A stretch of 64,000 nucleotides of DNA from contig CM075102.1 of NCBI GenBank assembly GCA_037576195.1, positions 2,852,001-2,916,000 of the forward strand, given 5' to 3'. The position numbers were made by a program, and so were the translations under genes. This DNA is from Phytoseiulus persimilis (lineage: Eukaryota; Arthropoda; Arachnida; Mesostigmata; Phytoseiidae). Positions 17,510 to 64,000 of this stretch are shown here, piece after piece (within the stretch, counting starts at the first letter, position 1; each line of letters begins with the position of its first letter). The notes beneath the pieces are model-generated. The model saw only the letters and a program-made list of their open reading frames with translations, was not told where the DNA came from and did no database searches.

Positions 17510-20500
17510 ATTCTCCTTCAAATATGAGATGAGCTGTGCACGCAGCCGACTTTATGGAGGGGAGCCTCAGCAGAATACGGCGTCGCAAAATGAGATAGGC
17601 CATACGATGAATCCCCGGTATGCCTCGGAGGGTCCAGATATTGGTCAAGCTCGTGCGGCATATTCCCATTCTAAGAGAGCATAATCGTAAGTATACACCG
17701 AAATGTCCGATGTATTGTTCTCACTCCGGGCAAAACCATGAGCGCGGGTCATTCCCATGACTCTGGTGAGAAATCACTAGGCCCGTCATCTGAATACTCC
17801 GTTCTGTTAGTTAGACACGAGGAAAGTATCACAACATCGTCCAGCGGGTACGATGCGTGCCGTCGCTCATGGCCACCATCTATTCAGCTTCCAGACGCAG
17901 CCTTGTGAGGAGAAGTCAGTCAGTTCCTGCCACTAGCGGGAATCGGATGCACGGCCCCTGATTCCATGAAATAACGTGAGTTCGCGCCTTCTATGACATC
18001 AACTGGCCTCTCGGTGGGAGCCGCCCACTTTTGCCTTGTCAATGAGACTCGGCGAACACCGAGCTCTGTTTTGTCAGTACCCGAAGCAGAGAGGCAGATC
18101 GGCGATTGTCTCACTCAACAGAGCGAGATTGATCATTCAAATACACCATCAGTATGCGAAAATGCATACAGAAGCGTCAAGGAATCCAAGTCCGCCGCAA
18201 ACCCTGAATTCACAATCAGCTAACGATCAATATCGCCGGAATATATGATATCCCCGCACTAGCGGTGAGGAGGTGACCTGAGACGGGAAACACAGCCAGA
18301 TAGCAAGCTCTGCTGTTCTCGGTTTTCCAATCTCAGGGTTGTATCTCGAGGTCAATCCAAGGCTGCTCTCCCGCTGTGAGTTTCGTCCGCTCTCATGCGT
18401 AGTCGACCCCCATTCCGAAAGCCAGTCATCTGCTAGTGTGCATTCCTTCCTCAGGTTGACTGCACGAGCATTTCGTTTCCTTTACTCTTCAAGGATTAGC
18501 CGCAGTCGGGTAAGACTTTTCCACCGGACCTGGATCGGGCAAGTGGTGATCACTCCGATGTGAAACCACTGAAACCTAAATCGAGTCCATTGCGTCATCT
18601 GCTCTCAGCCCTCTTGCAATGAGCAGGTACTTCTGCGATAGATGATCCTGGAGTGCTCCTGGCGGATGCCTCAGATGCATGTGCTGAGTCTGAATTTCTG
18701 AATGCTGCTGCTAACGTTGACGCTCCTCTTGGAGCGGACGGGCCTCGCGAGCAGAAGCGAAACGCCGAAGAGACTCACCGTGGAGAACGTTTTGATCGAG
18801 GCTGTGAATTTCGCCGCCAACCAAAACATTGAACCAGGGCGATTGCTGATCCTGGACATAGACGGTATCTTGCTTCATGAAAGGTGCAAGATCAACTCGA
18901 GTTTGATGGTGATGACGTCCATAGAATCAGATCGAGCTTTGATGTTGTCGGGCGCTGTGCCGATTCCATTATACCTCGAAGTCCTGGCTACCTCTCTCAA
19001 GGTTGTCGTTTTATCGTCGGTCTCGAAATTCTCATTCACGTTCTCCCTCATCCCTCCGGATCCATTCCAGAACTTTCGCCACAACTGCCTTCTGCATATT
19101 GTTACGGGCGGGAGCTCCAGTCTCAAAGTTGAGCCCTTGGTGAACACGCTTTATTGGTACGACGATCGTCGACGGCGTTTCAGCTGCGTGCACCGCTTCG
19201 ACCACATCGTTTCCTGGACTGGGAACGAGAGCTTGAAATCCTGTCGGTCGCGCGAAGAACAGTGCCGCGTGGAGTCTGTCTTCACCACCCAAGCTTTGAA
19301 ACTCGCGTATGTGAGGAAATATCTCCACAGCACAGTCAGGTGTGGGTCCACAACGATCAAAACAACGTTCTCGATGACTGCGCATGTTGGAGAAAGTTTT
19401 GAGCGATTCCTTATGAATCGCTATTCAATGTCCCAGGGGGATTTGACCGTTTGTCATTCCATCATCCACCGGCGAGAGACCGATGTCACGGCTCTGGTCG
19501 AGCCTTTCAAGATAGAAGTTTGGATTGCGAGTTTATGCTCCGCATCGATGATTGTGGGATTGCTGTCGTGGATGAGGGTCGGTACTTTTCGGAACACCGC
19601 AACCCGAGTCTCTCTGAGCTTGATAACAGCTCTAGAGGTCGAAGCCCACATCAGTCGCTTCTCGCACTTACTTGCTACCGGTTCCGTCCTTGCGCTCTGC
19701 TTTTTCCTTTCCCGCATCTACACGAACTTCATCATGGCATCCTTTCTGGACCCCCGAATGTACCGCGGTTGCGATCAAATGATTGACTGTCGATTCCTGC
19801 TCGAATGTCAATCCAAACACATTGTGCGTCATCATCTCTCGCATGGTGCCTGTCTGTGCAACATAAAACCAAAGCAACTTGCCATGGCCGGGAAGCCGCT
19901 GCACCGGGAAATTTTGCGAGGAGGGAAGTCGATGCCGGAGGGCGAAGATCTCCAAAACTTTATGTTTTTCCAGAAAAATATAATGTCTTCCGTATTTACG
20001 AGGACAGCAGCCAGGGGACAACTCCTGTTGATTTTGCCGCGGGTGAGCTCTTTTGTTGACCGATTGTTTCAGAATGGCATCGCGACAATCTCGCGCTTGG
20101 AAGCCGGGAAGAGTGAGATAGAGGAATACGAGAATGGTGTTCTGGGGAGATTCCATCCTCCGGACGATCTTCAGTCTATCGGAGACAACTGGGAAGAAAT
20201 CTTTGGTTTCGACACCGTGTGCGATTGGTTCGATATGAGAAGCTTTTGCAAAATTCAACCCGTTTTTGTGGCTTGTGCCGTCCTCATTCTTCTGGTCTTC
20301 TACTGCGAAAGCTGTCTGTCACTCATCAAGAAACGGTTTGGAACATAGCAAGGGGAGACTCGACATTCAGGGAACTTCTGCAAAACCGCCGTATGATCGG
20401 CGTAACGAATGGAATCGAGTAGGAATGTAGAACTCGCGCGAGCGGAGCAACATTCCTGAGGGAACTTGAGTTACTCTTCCTGACTCGCCTCCCCAATTCG

Positions 20501-24554: not shown

Positions 24555-27500
24555 TTTCTTTCGAATATTGAGATGAGCTATGCATGCGCTCAATAGTATT
24601 CGGGGGAACCACAGCAGAATACGGCTGTGCAGTATGCGATAGCCCATAAGATGGATATATGGTATACTTGGTATTCCTCGAGAGTCTTGATAATGATCGA
24701 GCTGGAATGGGATATTTCTATTTCAATAGCGTATGATTGCAAGCATGTCCCGGAACTCCTGATGTTGTCTCCTCGCTCCGGGTAGAACGATAAGGGAGGG
24801 TCGTTTCCATGACTCTGTCGAGACATCACTAGACCCACCACCGCAATACCCCGTTCTGCCAGTTGGACACGATGAAAGAATCACAACATCGTCCAGCGGG
24901 TATAATGCGTGCCGACGCTCATGGCTTCCATATATTCAGCTTCCAAACGCAGCCTTGCGAGAAGAAGTCCGTCAGCTCCAGACGCTAGCGGGAATTGGAT
25001 GCACGGCCCCTGATTCCATGGAATAGATTGAGCCCTCACCCTCTATCATATCAGTTGGGCTCTCGGCGGGAACCGCCCACCTTTGTTACGTCAAATGAGA
25101 TTCGGCGAACTCCGAGCTCCGTTTTGTCCGAGCCCGAAGCAGAGAGGGAGATCGGTGATTGTTCCACTTGGCAGAGCGAGATTGATCATCCAAACACACC
25201 ATCAGTAAGCGAGAATATATGCAGCAGCGTCAAGGAATTCAAGTCCGCCGCGAACCTCGGATTCACAATGAGCTTGCAATCATTATTCCCGACATAGATA
25301 AGATTTCACCACTAGTGGTGAGGAGGTGAGCGAAAACGGAAAATGGCACCAGATAGCACGCTTTGCTGTTCTCGATGTTTTAATCTGAGGGTTGCATCTC
25401 GAGGTCAATCCGAGGCTGCTCTCCCGCTGTGAGTTTCGCCCAACCCCATGCGTAGCGACCCTCACATTCCTCACGCTGACTTCACGAACATTCCGTTCCC
25501 TCTACTTGGAACCCGATCTCATCAAGGATTCGCCGCAGACAGGTAGGATTTTTCTACAGGACCTTGATCGGGTGAGAGGTGATCATTCCAATATGGAACC
25601 ATTCGAACCGAAGTCGGTCCCACTGCGTGACGCGCCCTCCGCGGCTGCGAGAAACCGCTTTCTATCTGCGGATGTGCCAGGTCGAAAATTTTCAATACTT
25701 CTGCTTACGTTGACGCTCCTATTGGAGCAAACCGTCTCCACGAGCAGGAGCGAAACGTCGAAAAAACTCAACGTGGAGAACGTTTTGATCGAGGCTGAGA
25801 ATTTCGCCGCTAACCGAAACATTGAACCAGGGCGATTGCTGATCCTGGACATGGACGGTATCTTGCTTAATGAAAGGTGCAAGGTCAACTCGAGTTTGAT
25901 GGTGATGACGTCCATAGAATCAGATCGAGCTTTGATGATGTCGGGCGCTGTGCCGATTCCATTATACCTCGAGGTCCTGGCTACCTCTCTCAAGGTTGTC
26001 ATTTTATCGTCGATCTCGAAATTCTCATTCACGTTCTCCTTCATCCCTCCGGTTCCGTTCCAGAACTTTCGCCACAACTGCCTTCTGCATATTGTTACGG
26101 GCGGGAGCTCCAGACTCAAAGTTGAGCCTTTGGTGAACACGCTTTATTGGTACGACGATCGTCGACGGCGTTTCAGCTGCGTACACCGCTTTGACCACAT
26201 AGTTTTTTGGACTGGGAACGAGAGCTTGAAATCCTGTCGATTGCGCGAAGAACAGTGCCGCGTGGAGTCTGTCTTCACCACACAAGCTTTGAAACTCGCG
26301 TATGTGAGGAAATATCTCCACAGCACAGTCAGGTGTGGGTCCTCAACGATCAAAACAACATTCTCGATGACTGCGCATGTTGAAAAGAATTTCGAGCGAT
26401 CCTTAATGAATCGCTATTCAATGTCCCAGGGGGATTTGACCGTTTGTAACTCCATCATCCACCGGCATGAGAACGATGTCACGGTTCTGGTCGAGCCTTT
26501 CAAAATAGACGTTTGGATTGCGAGTTTATGCTCCGCATCGATGATTGTAGGATTGCTGTCATGGATGAGGGTCGGTACTTTTCGGAGCACCGCAACCCGA
26601 GTCTCTCTGAGCTTGATCACAGCTATAGAGGTCGAAGCCCACATCAGTCGCTTCTCGCACTTACTCGCTACCGGCTCCGTCCTCGCGCTCTGCTTTTTCC
26701 TCTCCCGCATCTACACGAACTTCATCATGGCATCTTTTCTGGTCCCCGAATGTACCGTGGTTGCGATCAAAAGATTGACTGTCGTTTCCTGCTCGAATGT
26801 CAATCCAAAAACATTGTGCGTCATCATCTCTCGGATGGTGCCTGTCTTTGCAACATAAAACAAAAGCAACTAGCCATGGTCGGGAAGCCGCTGCACCGGG
26901 AAATTTTGCGAGGAGGGAAGCCGATGCCCGGGAGCGGAGGTCTCCAGAACTTTATGATTTTCCAGAAAAATCTGATGTCTTCCGTATCCACGAGGACAGC
27001 AACCATGGGACAACTCCTGTTGATTTTGCCGCGTATGAGCTCTTTTGTTGACCGATTGTTTCAAAATGGCATCGCGTCAATCTCTCAAGATAGAGGAATA
27101 CGAGAATGGTGTTCTGGGGAGATTCCATGCTCTTGACGCTCCTCGGTCTATCGGAGACAACCGGGAACATTTTCTCGGTTTTGACACCCTGAGCGATTGG
27201 TTGGATATGCGAAGCATATGCAAAATTCAGCCCGTTATTGTGGCTTGTGCCGTCCTCATTCTTTTGGTGTTCTATTGCGAAAGCCGTCTGTCACTCATCA
27301 AAAAACGGGTCGGAACACAGCATGGAGAGAGTCGACATTCAGGTAACTTCTGCGAAACCGTCGTATGATCGGTGTAACGAATGGAATCGAGGAGGAATGG
27401 AACACTCGCGCGAGCGGAGCAACATTCGTGAGGGAACTTGAGTATTCTTCCTCACTCGCCCCCTCGATTCGACGGACTGCCCCTGATGTCTGCACGGAGA

Positions 27501-28692: not shown

Positions 28693-30394
28693 CAGAGTTG
28701 GGCAGATTTGAATCATTTTGATTCCAATCAGATGTGATTCGATAGCTTTTGAGTCGAATCATTCTGGTTCGATCACGTAACTCGAATCGAATTCTGATTC
28801 GAGTCATTTTCTGATCCGAATCATTTTTCTCTCCTTCTCTTCACTGGGTCAGCATTATGGTTTTGAAAAGTATGGTCAGATTGGTCTCGGAATCACCCCT
28901 CCGAATTTTGAGAAGTGTGTTCAGATTGGTCCGGGAATCACGCCCCCCCTCCCCCAGACTTAGGAAGTAAGGGTCAGATTGGTCTTGTAATCACCCCTCC
29001 AGACTTAGAAAAGTATGGTCAGGTTGGTCCCGGAATAACCCCTCCAGACTTGAAATAGTATGGTCAGGTTGGTCTCGGAATCACTCCTAAAGCTTTTGAA
29101 AAATATGGTCAGATTGGCCCCGGAATCACCCCTCCAGACTTGGAAGAGTATGGTCAGATTGGTCCCGGAATCACTCCTCTACCTTTTGAAAAGTTTGATG
29201 AGATTGGTTTCGGAATCACCCCTCCAGGTTTTGGAAAGTATGGTTAGATTGAACTCGGAATCACCCCTCAAGGTTTTGAAAAGTATGGTCAGATTGGTCT
29301 CGGAATCACCCCTCCAGGTTTTGAAGAGTATGGACAGATTGGTCTCGGAATCACCCCCCCCCCCCAGACTTGGGTAGTAATTGTCAGATTGGTCTCGGAA
29401 TCACCCGTCCAGACTTGAGGAAGTATGGTCAAATTGGTCCCGGAATCACCCTTCCAGGTTTGAAAAAGTATGGTCAGATTTGTCTCGAAATCACTCCCAA
29501 AGCTTTTAAAAATTTGGTCAGATTGGTCCCAGAATCAGCCATCCAGACTCGGGGAGTAATGGTCAGATTGGTCTCGGAATCACCCCTCCAGACTTGAGGA
29601 AGTATGGTCAAATTGGTCCCGGAATCACCCTTCCAGGTTCAGAAAAGTATGGTCAGATTTGAGATGACTTGAGGAAGATTGGTCTCCGAGCCACCCCTCC
29701 AGACTTGGAAGAGTATGGTCAGATTGGTCCCGGAATCACCCCTCCAGCTTTTGAAAAGTATGGTCAGATTGGTCTCGGAATCACCCCTCCAGCTTTTTTT
29801 AAAGTATGATCAGACTGGTCCCGGAATCACGCCTGCATGTTTCGAAAAGTATGGTCAGATTGGTCTCGGAATCACCCCCCCCCCCAGATGAGGCAAGTAA
29901 TGGCTAGATCGGTTCCGGAATCACCCCTCCACGTTTTGAGAAGTATGGTCAGACTGGTCCCGGAATCACCCCTCCAGCTTTTGGAAAGTATGGTCAGATT
30001 GGTCTCGGAATCACCCCCCCCCCCCCAGACGAGGGAAGTAATGGCTAGATCGGTTCCGGAATCACCCCTCCACGTTTTGAGAAGTAAGGTCAGACTGGTC
30101 CCGGAATCACCCCTCTAACTTTTGGAAAGTATGGTCAGATTGGTCCCAGAATCACCCTTCCAGCTTTTGAAAAGTATGGTCAGATTGGTCTCGAATCACC
30201 CCTCCAGCTTTTGAAAAGTTTGGTCAGACTGGTCCGGACTGAGCCAATTATATATAGTAAGAAAATTCGAATCATTATTCCAAAAGTGATTCGAATCAAG
30301 AACCGTCGAATCAGAGTGATTCGAATCAGATGATTCGATCCTGATTCGACGGCTCTCGATTCGATGTTTCTTGATTCGAATCTGCCCAACTCTG
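28693..30394. mobile_element. Non-autonomous hAT-like element containing a minisatellite
   Basis: The ends are inverted repeats: CAGAGTTGGGCAGATTTGAA on the left (28693) and its complement, ending cgaatctgcccaactctg, on the right (30394), 21-22 bp with one mismatch. The CAGAGTTGGGC start is typical of hAT elements. The flanking 8-mers, cttcggcg and ctcctgcg, match at 6 of 8 positions and may be an aged 8-bp target-site duplication. Subterminal regions (28700-28830 and 30260-30390) are packed with gattcgaatca-like palindromic words. The centre is a 45-bp minisatellite. There is no transposase, so it would depend on one in trans. Confidence 0.8.
28866..30235 (+). repeat. 45-bp minisatellite, about 30 units
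   Basis: The unit is approximately tatggtcagattggtctcgg + aatcacccctccag + (a/g)cttttgaaaag, 45 bp. As 45 is divisible by three, plus-strand frames stay open as a 15-residue repeat (MVRLVSESPLQ.LKS), interrupted where units vary or where runs of C change length (29353-29362, 29876-29885, 30015-30026). An isolated patch of the same unit occurs at 36964-37080. Confidence 0.95.
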
Positions 30395-34539: not shown

Positions 34540-34707
34540 GGTAGGAACTTGTAATGGGTTTCCACCGGCGCCGCGGGCATTCCGGACGGCGGCGCCCGTG
34601 AACTGAAAAACTTACGGCGGCGACACTCGCCGTAGCGAAAAAGAAGTGTCGCGGCGCGTCGTCTTGCGCCGGGGGATCCGGTCCCTGATTGATACAGGAG
34701 TTCATTG

Positions 34708-35139
34708 ATTGTCAACCATTCCTCGAAGTTGATTGTCAACCATTCCTCGAAGTTGATTGTCAACCATTCCTCGAAGTTGATTGTCAACCATTCCTCGAAG
34801 TTGATTGTCAACCATTCCTCGAAGTTGATTGTCAACCATTCCTCGAAGTTGATTGTCAACCATTCCTTGAGGCTGATTGTCAACCATTCCTCGAAGTTGA
34901 TTGTCAACCATTCCTCGAAGTTGATTGTCAACCATTCCTCGAAGTTGATTGTCAACCATTCCTCGAAGTTGATTGTCAACCATTCCTCGAAGTTGATTGT
35001 CAACCATTCCTCGAAGTTGATTGTCAACCATTCCTCGGAGTTGATTGTCAACCATTCCTCGAAGTTGATTGTCAACCATTCCTCGAAGTTGATTGTAAAC
35101 CATTCCTCGAAGTTGATTGTCAACCATTCCTCGGTCATG
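34708..35139 (+). repeat. 24-bp tandem array, 18 units
   Basis: Exactly 18 units of 24 bp (attgtcaaccattcctcgaa + gttg). Variants are rare (unit 7 ttgaggctg; a ggag in one unit; one gtaaac). As 24 is divisible by three, at least two frames on each strand run through it: plus IVNHSSKL and PFLEVDCQ, minus EEWLTINF and RGMVDNQL. Unit uniformity implies recent expansion. Confidence 0.97.
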
Positions 35140-38360: not shown

Positions 38361-40315
38361 CTACAGCAGCATGGTGTGTGGCTTTTCGAGGTAACTCCTG
38401 AACGCCTGCAACCACTGAGCGCCCACGGCGCCGTCAACCACACGATGATCGCAGTTCAGAGTGACTTTCATCACTTTCACCGAACGATATCCGTTCTCCT
38501 TGCAGGGCTTTGCAATCTCAGTTGTTCTGCCGACAGACAAGATGCACGACTGCGAAAGGTTAACAGGACGTTATGAGAATAGGCCGGCTCGCGAGATTAG
38601 CAGAGACTAGGTGCTCGTAGACCCCGGAATTCATTCAAGTGACGCTCAGACGGATCCCATCCAAGGTGGGAACGGACACATCATCAGCTTGACCATGAAA
38701 CTCACCTGGGGAGGATTGATGATGGCCGAAAAATGATCCACTCCGAACATTCCCAGGTTGGAAACAGTGAACGTCCCTCCGACGAACTCAGCAGGCTGAA
38801 GTTTTTTCTCGCGAGCCTTGTTGGCGAGCTCCTTCGTATCCTGACTGATCTCCAGCAAACCTGAGGTAATCAAAGCATGCAAAGTTTCATTCCGAGTTTC
38901 AAGTCCGGAGGGTTGTAGAATCAACTGCTCTTCTCTCTCAGATCTCCAGCCCGCGCACGCGGGTCAATGAGCTTCTTGGATGAAGTGATCGATGAGAATA
39001 GAACCAAAGCTCGTTACTGGGGCGGTTCGTCGACTGACCTTTCGAGTCCGCATTGAAGACGATCGGCGTTATGAGTCCATCGGGAGTGGAAACCGCGACG
39101 CTGACGTCTACAGCCTTGAACTCTCGAATGAAAGTATCCATGAACGCAGAGTTCGCAGCCGGAACTTTCTTGCAGGACAGCGCGGAGGCCTGAAATGTCA
39201 GAGGAGAGCATTGAAAGTCGAGGTTCCGACTCTGATCTGACACTTCCAGTGACGGGGAGAAAATCATTCATATGTTTGTTCGGAGAAGCTCTTCCGCAAG
39301 CTCACCTTGACTATGAAGTCGTTGACAGAGAGTTTCACGTCCTTGAGGTTGGAGTTGAGCTCCTCTCGGAGTTTGAGCAAGTCATCCATTTCGATCTCGA
39401 CGGTCAATGAATAATGCGGGATCTGCCGCTTGGACTCCGACAGTCTCTTGGCGATGGTCTGGCGCATGTTCGTCAAGTCGATGTCCGTGTATCTGGAGCT
39501 GGGGACTTTCTCAAGAACCGAATCGGCGGCACCTGAGGTGCCGCTAGGTTGAGCTGCGTTCAGGTCAGCGGCGACGATTCTCCCTCCGAACCCAGTGCCC
39601 GCAACGGATGCCAGATCCAAACCTTTAGCAGCGGCCAAAGCTTTGGCGAAAGGCGAAGCCTTGATCCTCTGGCCCGGTGCGAAGAGGCTCGCGGGTGCAC
39701 TTGGTTGCGTTATCTGAGCTGCTACCGGTTTCGGAGCTGCTGGTGCAGGTCCTGGGGCGGGCGTAGCCGCTGATTTCGGAGCCGGTGCGGTGGGAGATCC
39801 CGTGTCCTTGAAGTCTCTGAAGGCGGCGACGTCGGCTTCTTCGGAAACTATGATGCAGAGAAGTTTCCCTAGAGGAACGTCCTTCGATCCGGCAGGCAGG
39901 ATAATTTTGGCGAGGTAGCCTTCTTCAGGAGTTTCGAATCCCATTGTCGCTTTGTCCGTTTCGATTTCGCAGAGGAGATCTCCTTCGTTGAGTTTGTCAC
40001 CTTCTTTCTTGTCCCAAGAAACAATTGTTCCTTGCTCCATGGTCGGAGATAGGGCCGGAAGGGCCACCTTAGTGTGGGAAGGCAGGTTGTCTAGAAAGTA
40101 TGAGAGACTTTGTTCTCAAATCACATTCGACCAACGATTCTTCAGTGGCCTATCGAATCATAGTGCTAGCTGTACATCACAGATTTGGGTCTGGCTCGTT
40201 TGAACGATTACTAGGGAAATCAGACTCACCAGAGCTGTAGCACCTGATCTGAGATGGGAGTCGGTTTGATTCCAACAATGGGAAGGCTTTCTGAACTGCG
40301 GGGGCATTGCGGAAG
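38361..40315 (-). CDS. Pyruvate dehydrogenase E2 (dihydrolipoamide acetyltransferase)
   Basis: Five exons on the minus strand: 40315-40230, 40090-39306, 39189-39039, 38860-38706, 38549-38361. All introns are GT-AG and all phases agree, giving about 454 residues plus an unseen N-terminus. Exon 40315-40230 ends a Ser/Arg-rich mitochondrial presequence ([11 protein letters not shown]). A single lipoyl domain follows ([14 protein letters not shown] ... [10 protein letters not shown], lipoyl Lys near 39952), then an Ala/Pro linker and the E3-binding domain ([29 protein letters not shown]). The acetyltransferase domain runs from [10 protein letters not shown] to the active-site DHRVVDG and ends EKPHTMLL. 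The enzyme transfers acetyl groups from lipoate to CoA in the mitochondrial pyruvate dehydrogenase complex. The first exon with the start codon is unresolved; an ATG at 40706 opens an Arg-rich, acid-poor frame (MQRILRLGPARSGQ) that would suit, but no clear donor was found. [10 protein letters not shown] and the PALSPTM start favour PDH E2 over the related 2-oxoglutarate or branched-chain E2s. Confidence 0.95.
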
Positions 40316-61090: not shown

Positions 61091-61768
61091 ATTCAGCTTC
61101 GGCTTTCGAGCTCCCTTCGGCGAACTCTGATTCCTTCTAGCGTGTATTTCACAGGAGTCAATCATGCGGAATCTCATGCACGGTGTCGTTCTGAATTCCG
61201 ATTCCCGCAGCAGACGAAAAGTATGGAACGAAACGGCTCATCGGGAGAACAGCGGTGAATTCAGCGCGATATCGGAATCGAAACCCTAGACCGGAGATGC
61301 GCAAGCGCGGGTTCCCAGCTCCTGCTGCCCTGGAAACGGCGATCGAGCTCATTTCATCTGCAGCGAATTCGAACGCCTCACATGCTTGAACTGCTTGCTG
61401 CGTTCTTGAGCGAACTGATTTTGAATCTTGTCTTGGCCCATGTGGTGTTATGCACAGAGGCTCAAAATATTCCACAAATCGCAATCTCAATCGTCACCTG
61501 CAGCATAATTCCAACTCGATGTGCCCTGGGAGTGTGCTCTAATCAGAGTTCACAGTTACAGCTTGGTAGTCACCGAATGATCATAGGTCCAACGCACACG
61601 CCGGCTAACAGGTCCCTAGTTTGCAGATTGTACGTCCAGTCTCGACAAGACCTCTTGCTTCTCTCTGGCAGGTCGCCTGTACGACGTGGACGGAGCCCGA
61701 TATCCTCGCAGCGTCCGACGGGGTCACGGAATCATCGCAAGTCCATCGTCGCCGTCTCCGATAGCCTG
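61091..61768. other. No recognisable gene
   Basis: Spacer between the two TAZ-related copies. The right end is presumably 3' untranslated sequence of the minus-strand gene. Confidence 0.4.
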
Positions 61769-62164
61769 CTAGAGCTGTTTCCTTCTTTGAGGCTCACAGA
61801 AATAGCAGCCCTCCACTTTACACAAGCCCCAGTGGAGGAGTACGATCCCTGAGAGCCAGCAGTCTCGGTACTGGCAGGCGGTGTCGGAGCACTTCTCCAG
61901 GTGTCGCAGGAAGGTCCTCCCTGCGCAACAGCCTGGAAAACGGCACTTCCTTGGGCATCTTATTGCAGAGTTCGAGTCGACCCTGGCCTCCTTCGCGAAA
62001 CATTCGCGAGCGTGAACGAAGATTTCGAGCTGCTTTTGTTGTAGCGTCCTGATCTCGTCGTCGCTCGTCGCGGCTATCTCCGCTGCCGTGGAAACATTCT
62101 TCTCGGAGTGCGTTTTCAGAGCAGCGGCGCCCTCGGACGGTCCCGAAGCTGGATATACGAACAT
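61769..62164 (-). CDS. Stand-alone TAZ zinc-finger protein, CBP/p300 TAZ1-like
   Basis: One exon, 131 residues. The ATG at 62164 is in a good context (acaaaATG). Residues 1-38 are a low-complexity leader; residues 39-128 form a TAZ zinc finger like TAZ1 of CBP/p300. QQKQLEIFVHAREC matches the first helix. Three zinc sites are complete: H51-C55-C74-C79, H88-C92-C97-C102 and H111-C115-C120-C123, with the HWxxC...CxxC end intact. The first loop is ~6 residues longer than in CBP. In CBP/p300 this module binds transactivation domains; here KIX, bromodomain and acetyltransferase parts are absent. The product would be a small, probably nuclear protein that could compete for TAZ1 ligands. Alternatives are a non-functional piece of a duplicated CBP gene or an exon of a larger gene. 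A decayed second 5' copy lies at 60.8-61.1 kb, and a hAT element starts 280 bp upstream. Confidence 0.75.
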   Translation of the reverse strand: MFVYPASGPSEGAAALKTHSEKNVSTAAEIAATSDDEIRTLQQKQLEIFVHARECFAKEARVDSNSAIRCPRKCRFPGCCAGRTFLRHLEKCSDTACQYRDCWLSGIVLLHWGLCKVEGCYFCEPQRRKQL

Positions 62165-62440
62165 TTTGTGTCGATTTCAGGGAGTCGAACAAGGCTGTAA
62201 CTGAGCAAGCGACGTGCACCACTGAACACATCGATTCCGAACGCTCACGGATTCTTATGAAGGCAAAGAAGGGGAGAAACCTCGGAAGGTGGGGTTTCCG
62301 CGGCTCTGATCGAGAGAGAGATATTTCGGAAGGCGGAGCTATCACAGAAAACAACGGCGGGCGTCTTCCTGAACGGAAAGGGTTCCTGAGAACCGCGAAC
62401 CAATAGGGCTAATAAGTATCGTATTCTTCATGGTGTGAAC

Positions 62441-64000
62441 CAGAGGTGGGCAAAGTGCGGCCCGCGGGCCGCATGCGGCCCGCGAGTTGACCCCTGCGTT
62501 TGAGCAGGGTTTTGCACAACTCAAGCGCTCAAAATCGCCAAATGGCTTCCATGGAGGCAGAGATTCGGCAAAAAGCCATACTGTGAACACGAACTTGCCT
62601 ATTTCTATCGCTTCCAGTCTCCTCTCTTGACGTCTCTCCGCCCCACGATTCAGCATCTACCACTGTTGCGCCGGCGCCGTCTGGCTCCCGAATCTTCGAG
62701 AATGATCTGAGAGGAACGGAAGGAATTTTCTTCCACAGGCAGCTCTCAGTGTTCTCACAAAATGCTAGGAAAATGAGTTCCCCGAACGAGTTACGGTTCC
62801 ATGAATACATTTTTATTATTCATTCGACTCACGAGCGGATCTCTCTCTGACAATCCTGTCGATGTCGGGTTTGAAATTTGATGTTGCGATCCGCAGAACG
62901 TTCTCAAGGTTGGAATTTGAGATTCTTGACCGTCGTCGAGATTTGTTCTGATTCATTATGCTGAAGCTCTGTTCACAGATGTATGTGCTACCGAAAAGTG
63001 ACATCAGCTTCGTCGCATGGTTACAAATATTGGGGAAAATACGCCGATCCAGGGATCGGTAAAATTCTAGCAGAGAGCTCTCCCTATGTATCGTTTTCAA
63101 AGTAAGATTATTCTGAAGCGTGATAAGTTCGAGCTGAACCGTCGTAGGGGCGGTATGAATATCGATCGCGAACGGATCGGAGAAAAGAAGAAAATCAGCC
63201 TCTGACGCACTGAAGTCTGCGAAACGAATCTGAAACTCCTGTAGAAGGTTCTCAAGATCTCCCTTGAACTGGATGCACATGGCGTCTTTTTCGTCGGATT
63301 CAAGGAGCGTCATCTCAGTCCTCGGGAAATGAGCGAGGATCCCGTTCGAAAATTGAAATATGAACAGTTTCAACGTATCAACAAAGCTCCTCACTTCCAA
63401 GAAGAGATCTGATGCAAACTTCTGTTTGCCTTGTAGCTTAATGTTGAGATCATTCATGTGACCCATGATGTCAGCGAGGAAGGCAACTTCCTGCCAAAAC
63501 TTCGGCTCTTTGATCTCACTCGCGAAGTTTCCGTGCTGTTCGGCGAAACGGAGAATCTCCGCCCTGAGTGCGAAGAAGCGATCCAACATCATCCCGCGGC
63601 TGAGCCACCGCACCTCCGTGTGATAGATAATGTCGCCAAATTCGGCGTCAACTTCGTCCAAGAACGCGCGGAACGATCGGTGAGTCAGGGCTCGCGAACG
63701 TATATAATTGACCGTTGAATTCACTTGCGACAATATCTTCTTGCATTTGAAGACTTTTCCTCAAAGCGCTTCTTGATGGATGATGCAGTGATATTTCAGG
63801 AATGGCACGTTGAGATTGTTCTCTAGAAGTGCGAGGGCTCCATTGCGCCTTCCTGTCATTGATGGAGCTCCATCAGTGCAACACCCACTGATTTTCAGCG
63901 GCGGGAGCTTGAAGTGCTCGATGACTCTGAGAACCTCATCACAGATATCTTTCCCGGTCGTGGTTCCCATGATCGAACACATCGCCGCCAACTCCTCAAA
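62441..64000 (-). mobile_element. hAT transposon, GTF2IRD2/ZBED-like transposase, partial
   Basis: The 3' end carries the terminal repeat cagaggtgggcaaagtgcgg + cccgcgggcc at 62441, characteristic of this hAT group; an 8-bp duplication candidate gtgtgaac precedes it. Minus-strand transposase runs from the window edge: CTDGAPSMTGRRNGALALL, YHCIIHQEAL, then FRAFLDEVDAEFGDIIYHTE, VRWLSRGMML, and the hATC dimerisation region LFGSTYICEQSFSIMNQNKS ... ENVLRIATSN. It ends at TGA 62816-62818, overlapping an AATAAA. One in-frame TGA (63761-63763) interrupts the frame at QEAL*GKVFKCKK, where relatives usually have Cys. Otherwise the visible ~390 codons are open. The N-terminal zinc finger and the 5' end lie beyond the window. 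Confidence 0.9.

Follow-up and report, generated by a model that had tools for sequence, protein, structure and literature searches.

A TAZ1-type zinc finger frame outside CBP, and a family of related frames, in the mite Phytoseiulus persimilis

Why should a mite genome carry a TAZ1 domain outside CBP? The question is raised by a short frame in a 64,000-nucleotide stretch of the Phytoseiulus persimilis genome (assembly GCA_037576195.1, contig CM075102.1, here C2, positions 2852001-2916000), which we refer to as the window. An earlier note, made from the letters alone, had described the frame as a single-exon protein consisting of a TAZ1-type zinc finger, and had suggested that this isolated copy is either a decoy or modulator of CBP-dependent transcription, or a recent gene fragment. 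We examined the frame and searched the whole genome (181 Mb) for its relatives and for the CBP gene.

Sequence comparisons give good support for the existence of a TAZ1-type family, of which the window frame is one member. Our best explanation, held with about even confidence, is that these are stand-alone genes encoding free docking proteins that serve as decoys of, or stand-ins for, the TAZ1 domain of CBP. Our literature searches, which covered open-licence papers, listed no paper naming a stand-alone animal TAZ1 family. If this explanation is true then free TAZ1 proteins represent a natural experiment, in which either an organism has evolved its own dominant-negative regulator, or CBP loses its TAZ1 and other genes supply it.

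The window frame encodes a TAZ1-type domain

The frame and its domain are located as follows.

61769..62164, minus strand: TAZ1-type protein frame, single exon, 131 amino acids, with ATG at 62164-62162 and TAG at 61771-61769
61796..62041, minus strand: TAZ domain, residues 42-123, with 12 zinc ligands (Pfam match and ligand alignment)

The only Pfam-A family that matches the 131-residue frame at E <= 1 is zf-TAZ (PF02135; E 5.5e-10), with a score of 40 bits against a curated cut-off of 25, and residues 42-123 cover model positions 1-72 of 72; by these measures the match is far beyond chance. The same scan finds no CBP domain except TAZ, the HAT_KAT11 gene being situated on another contig (C3), and no BTB domain. 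Comparison with PDB sequences using phmmer yields six distinct matches at E <= 1 (best E 1e-9), all named p300, CREB-binding protein, 'histone acetyltransferase' or p53-CBP fusion, and the aligned letters suggest that these are TAZ1 constructs.

The twelve ligands fall into three HCCC sites (H51 C55 C74 C79, H88 C92 C97 C102, and H111 C115 C120 C123) that align with those of CBP TAZ1 and are predicted to bind zinc. Among ten aligned TAZ rows 11 of the 12 are in invariant columns, and the C97 column is nearly invariant; C70 is not a ligand, as the paralogues described below have R at that position. The third site ends C-x4-C-x2-C and the third loop is short, features of the TAZ1 subtype that are unlike TAZ2, and both the ligand order and this ending are common to the TAZ1 (CH1) domain of CBP/p300, with which the helix ahead of the first histidine also aligns. 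The frame differs from CBP/p300 in having no HAT, bromodomain, RING, KIX, ZZ or TAZ2. The first zinc loop (C55 to C74) has 18 residues compared to 12 in p300, and when the TAZ rows are aligned the window copy has 35% identity to p300 TAZ1. The earlier note's description of a small intact frame with the ligands in order, no other CBP domains, and a long first loop that argues for divergence thus agrees with each of these results, including the profile search that it had proposed.

Six intact copies are present on two contigs

The genome contains at least 13 zf-TAZ matches, all above the cut-off, comprising one in the CBP gene (TAZ2, C3:35.469 Mb), six in a cluster on contig C1, and six in the window family. 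The intact family copies are at C2:2913772 (the window copy), C2:2931271, C2:2963196, C2:2988898, C3:107330 and C3:132549, and a 900-base DNA query from the window matches the same six places, with the frame intact in all of them. The copy is therefore not isolated as had been supposed, since it has five intact paralogues and C1 contains a further TAZ cluster. The seventh relative, located at C2:3027259, is decayed, with 59 residues matched at 39%, an internal TGA, and, on reading the frame, the first cysteine ligand and others gone.

Three segments describe what the window copy shares with its paralogues.

61709..62400, minus strand: block in common with the five paralogues, including the 5' flank, the frame and a short 3' stretch (blastn and alignment)
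61310..61438, no strand assigned: second short stretch in common with the paralogues, 81.5% identical over 130 columns
61724..61768, minus strand: former C-terminal tail QAIGDGDDGLAMIP followed by TGA, readable behind the TAG of the window copy

The larger block is 89.6-89.9% identical to the five paralogues over 694 aligned columns (89% in the separate 900-base search). The second stretch, which shows no coding signal in the one strand translated, follows the first block on its 3' side after ~270 bases in the window, and lies ~2.2 kb from it in the five paralogues. Because only the 694-column block and the 130-column piece are shared with the others, the window copy is the oldest of the intact copies. 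The paralogous frames are 146 residues long from the same ATG, 15 residues longer than the window copy, with the tail QAIGDGDDGLAMIP translated; the part that the window copy has lost is outside of the TAZ domain. Across 438 coding bases four of these paralogues have the same sequence, and the fifth (C2:2931271) differs at 4 bases.

In the window copy an in-frame TGA is present four codons 5' of the ATG and the stop-to-stop frame begins NRHKM, such that this ATG is the natural start. The same TGA bears on whether the frame could belong, as an exon, to a larger spliced gene. Our searches read frames regardless of introns, and the frame of the five paralogues stays open for 27 codons 5' of the ATG, as an exon might be; however, the TGA closes it in the window copy, the copies differ by a one-base indel right before the ATG, and every copy has a stop after the domain. 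We consider a spliced gene of this type very unlikely.

The five paralogues have long flanks in common, all within a ~25-kb unit rich in transposable elements (TEs). This unit is present twice in tandem on C3 (99.5% identity) and recurs on C2 interrupted by insertions; within one unit, those stop-to-stop frames of at least 170 residues that could be recognised by eye are transposon remains, the TAZ frame aside. The occurrence of copies on two contigs in TE-rich surroundings could indicate that the TAZ frame is cargo spread by a mobile element, and a KIX domain elsewhere in this genome does occupy a retroelement-like frame (see below). Yet the five similar copies have extended flanks in common, all from one 25-kb unit, which fits segmental duplication, and no terminal repeats were noticed in the 694-base block alignment, at which no repeat finder was aimed. 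We consider mobile cargo highly unlikely.

Selection on the frame

The window copy differs from the paralogue at 33 of 393 bases without an indel, changing 19 of 131 residues, and all 12 ligands are retained between the window copy and the paralogues. By comparison 15% of the 5' flank has diverged (35 of 235 positions), and nonsynonymous change compared with 5' flank difference gives p = 0.002. Between window copy and paralogues the ratio of nonsynonymous to synonymous substitution rates (dN/dS) by the Nei-Gojobori method is 0.38 over the whole frame, with a lower value in the TAZ part (0.28) and a higher one in the N-terminal 41 residues (0.58), and a codon model gives 0.391 for the whole (p = 0.016) and 0.314 for the TAZ part (p = 0.029). 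When 33 changes are simulated neutrally, no more than 19 amino-acid changes, combined with an absence of stops and retention of the ligands, are obtained in just 0.4% of runs (0.004). The low dN/dS and the 15% flank difference therefore suggest that selection maintained the frame for some period, and its TAZ part after the split of the copies. The earlier note had proposed that a neutral ratio would speak against its reading, and neither estimate (0.38 by Nei-Gojobori, 0.39 by the codon model) is of this kind.

Several observations weigh against our preferred explanation of a functional protein family. Constraint on the N-terminal 41 residues is not significant (omega 0.645, p = 0.45); at most 19 amino-acid changes are, when taken alone, found in 8.4% of the neutral runs (P = 0.084); and purifying selection between window copy and paralogues is only moderately significant. 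All four differences in 438 bases between the two recent paralogue types change an amino acid, and present constraint is thus unproven, although this is a tiny sample from five recent copies. The window copy is also cut short by 15 residues at its TAG. As for the four-helix fold of TAZ1, AlphaFold2, run on the single sequence without the first methionine, returns a mean predicted local distance difference test (pLDDT) score of 47, too low to speak for or against it.

The four amino acid-changing differences and the early stop in the window copy, together with the decayed relative nearby at C2:3027259 and transposon remains all around, are what would be expected of a former gene that is a dying or neutral passenger, carried by segmental duplication in TE-rich DNA, with the window copy becoming a pseudogene. 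A passenger would less readily have retained the frame and 12 ligands in all six copies that match over the block, or an omega of 0.39 (p = 0.016), and none of the 33 differences in the frame is a domain-internal stop, a ligand change or an indel. We regard the passenger explanation as unlikely, though with a real chance of being correct.

CBP of the same genome

A single CBP-type gene is identifiable by its histone acetyltransferase (HAT) domain, and a KIX domain is found elsewhere.

C3:35467725-35471454: CBP-type HAT gene, with the single HAT_KAT11 match of the genome (E 4.8e-81)
C1:22258717-22261938: KIX and DUF1759 frame of 618 residues, beginning at base 712 of this segment, with KIX at 1501-1722 (Pfam)

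The HAT_KAT11 frame is 643 residues long and also contains TAZ2; a RING_CBP-p300 match adjoins it, and a Creb_binding domain is present in the DNA after the frame. The TAZ2 is closely similar to that of human CBP, with 75 of 91 residues identical (82%). Searching the genome with human p300 TAZ1 at E <= 10 gives 14 matches, 12 of which correspond to the known TAZ1-type frames (best 46%) and two of which are weak (E 0.08 and 2.4); none is near the CBP gene, and the match with E 0.08 (C3:32366546, 3 Mb from CBP) was rejected, as no TAZ-like frame is evident on reading. The TAZ1 motif HAHKCQ, searched for as a degenerate DNA pattern, has no matches in the genome, and neither does its reversed control. 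Human KIX has one match, at 36%, on C1, in the frame shared with DUF1759. With 48.8 bits against a cut-off of 27 it is the only KIX found above cut-off in the genome, the Pfam KIX model giving one sub-threshold match elsewhere. We take the DUF1759 frame with KIX to represent gag from a BEL/Pao-like element.

The TAZ1 and KIX domains of a snail CBP are over 90% identical to the human ones, according to PMC9828244. Because the TAZ1 and KIX searches do so poorly here compared to both these domains of the snail and the 82% identity of TAZ2, CBP of this genome may lack TAZ1 and KIX. The relevant segments may instead fall into an assembly gap, N letters, or small exons upstream.

These results bear on whether the stand-alone proteins are a separate docking subunit that carries the TAZ1 functions of a lineage in which CBP is without TAZ1 (and KIX). 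The single HAT_KAT11 gene with its RING, well conserved TAZ2 and Creb_binding domains would then be the remaining CBP, consistent with p300 TAZ1 finding nothing above 46% identity and the lone KIX match being in a DUF1759 frame on a different contig. Against this, CBP exons upstream of the core may be missing from the assembly, hidden in N letters or broken by introns, and there is no sign of the stand-alone proteins binding CBP; we consider a docking subunit rather improbable. We give the same small probability to a broader form in which CBP has been taken apart, with a catalytic half that keeps RING, HAT, ZZ and TAZ2, and TAZ1 docking performed by a growing family of single-TAZ and four-TAZ proteins, one cluster of which was amplified by the 25-kb duplication.

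Relation to other TAZ domains

The C1 cluster comprises a second set of TAZ frames.

C1:18901264-18911014: cluster of TAZ-only frames (zf-TAZ profile search and Pfam)

This includes a 481-residue stop-to-stop frame (472 residues from the Met) with four consecutive TAZ1-type domains, and two single-TAZ frames of 144 and 225 residues, so that there are six TAZ1-type domains, all with complete ligands. The C1 frames resemble the window copy in being intronless, in having TAZ as the sole domain recognised by Pfam, and in their TAZ1-type ligands, but are only 21-27% identical to it. Each TAZ1-type row of the genome is nearer to human p300 TAZ1, with 30-46% identity, than to any row with which it is not paired (21-30%), a pattern that would fit rapid divergence of each from a TAZ1-like ancestor. 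A tree of the ten TAZ rows has one supported inner branch among seven, that of the window/paralogue pair; as the other six are unsupported and long branches meet, we claim no branching order.

TAZ2 of the same genome's CBP belongs to the same TAZ zinc-finger superfamily but is 20% identical to the window copy, from which it differs in its last finger and in the greater length of the segment ahead of the third histidine. The plant BT (BTB-TAZ) proteins, BT1-BT5, likewise have a TAZ domain outside of CBP/HAC, but with an N-terminal BTB domain, to which the window protein has no match. CITED2, a small protein that restricts traffic through TAZ1 competitively, may be regarded as a functional analogue. 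It is a disordered ligand of TAZ1, whereas the window protein would be a spare TAZ1.

The recent CBP fragment suggested in the earlier note was rejected, since identity to p300 TAZ1 is only 35% and an old decayed sister exists; the earlier interpretation as a whole is partly supported. A viral origin was also rejected, as 19 pattern matches were obtained when IMG/VR was scanned with the protein, none of them confirmed as a relative. The genome search with the window protein also gives two weak matches, labelled L018 and L019 (E 0.24 and 2.1).

Possible role of the TAZ1-type proteins

According to the review PMC12547938, TAZ1 is among the main sites at which animal transcription factors of stress and immunity dock; it binds HIF-1alpha, CITED2, STAT2 and RelA, with the factors competing for it. 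Under our preferred explanation of a free docking family, an old TAZ1-like ancestor, ultimately TAZ1 of CBP/p300, would have given rise to single-exon genes encoding little beyond a zinc-bound helical bundle; one lineage would have become established in TE-rich C2 DNA, with one copy multiplied by the ~25-kb tandem duplication that is also on C3. If expressed, the protein would fold around three zinc ions and bind the activation domains of factors that normally dock on CBP TAZ1. We infer a possible role as a decoy or modulator in the CBP pathway. Where ordinary CBP is present, a protein without its own HAT would titrate these factors and thus act as a decoy that damps CBP-dependent transcription; where CBP is without TAZ1, it could serve instead as a separate docking piece.

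Other features of the window

The TAZ frame is flanked on its upstream side by a transposon, and several other features are seen further away.

62433/62441..64000, minus strand: hAT transposon, which runs past the window to about C2:2916930 and has its near end 277 bases upstream of the TAZ-frame ATG
18702-20348 and 25392-26858: pair of long single frames that resemble each other
28860-30238: tandem array with a degenerate 45-base unit, about 30 copies
34705-35133: tandem repeat with a 24-base unit, 17.9 copies, 97%, with several reading frames open
39264-40067: part of an ordinary host gene, an exon encoding lipoyl/E3-binding/2-oxoacid dehydrogenase acyltransferase (E2)

The hAT element is bounded at both ends by an identical 8-base GTGTGAAC, as after hAT insertion, and contains a hAT dimerisation domain in the frame at 62816-63733; it is a neighbour and not part of the TAZ gene. 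The two long frames have no Pfam match at E <= 0.01 but by eye resemble receptor-type membrane proteins, and their DNA is 91% identical over about 2 kb. Motifs like those of the 45-base array are also present in L018 and in the C1 KIX region (C1:22258717-22261938).
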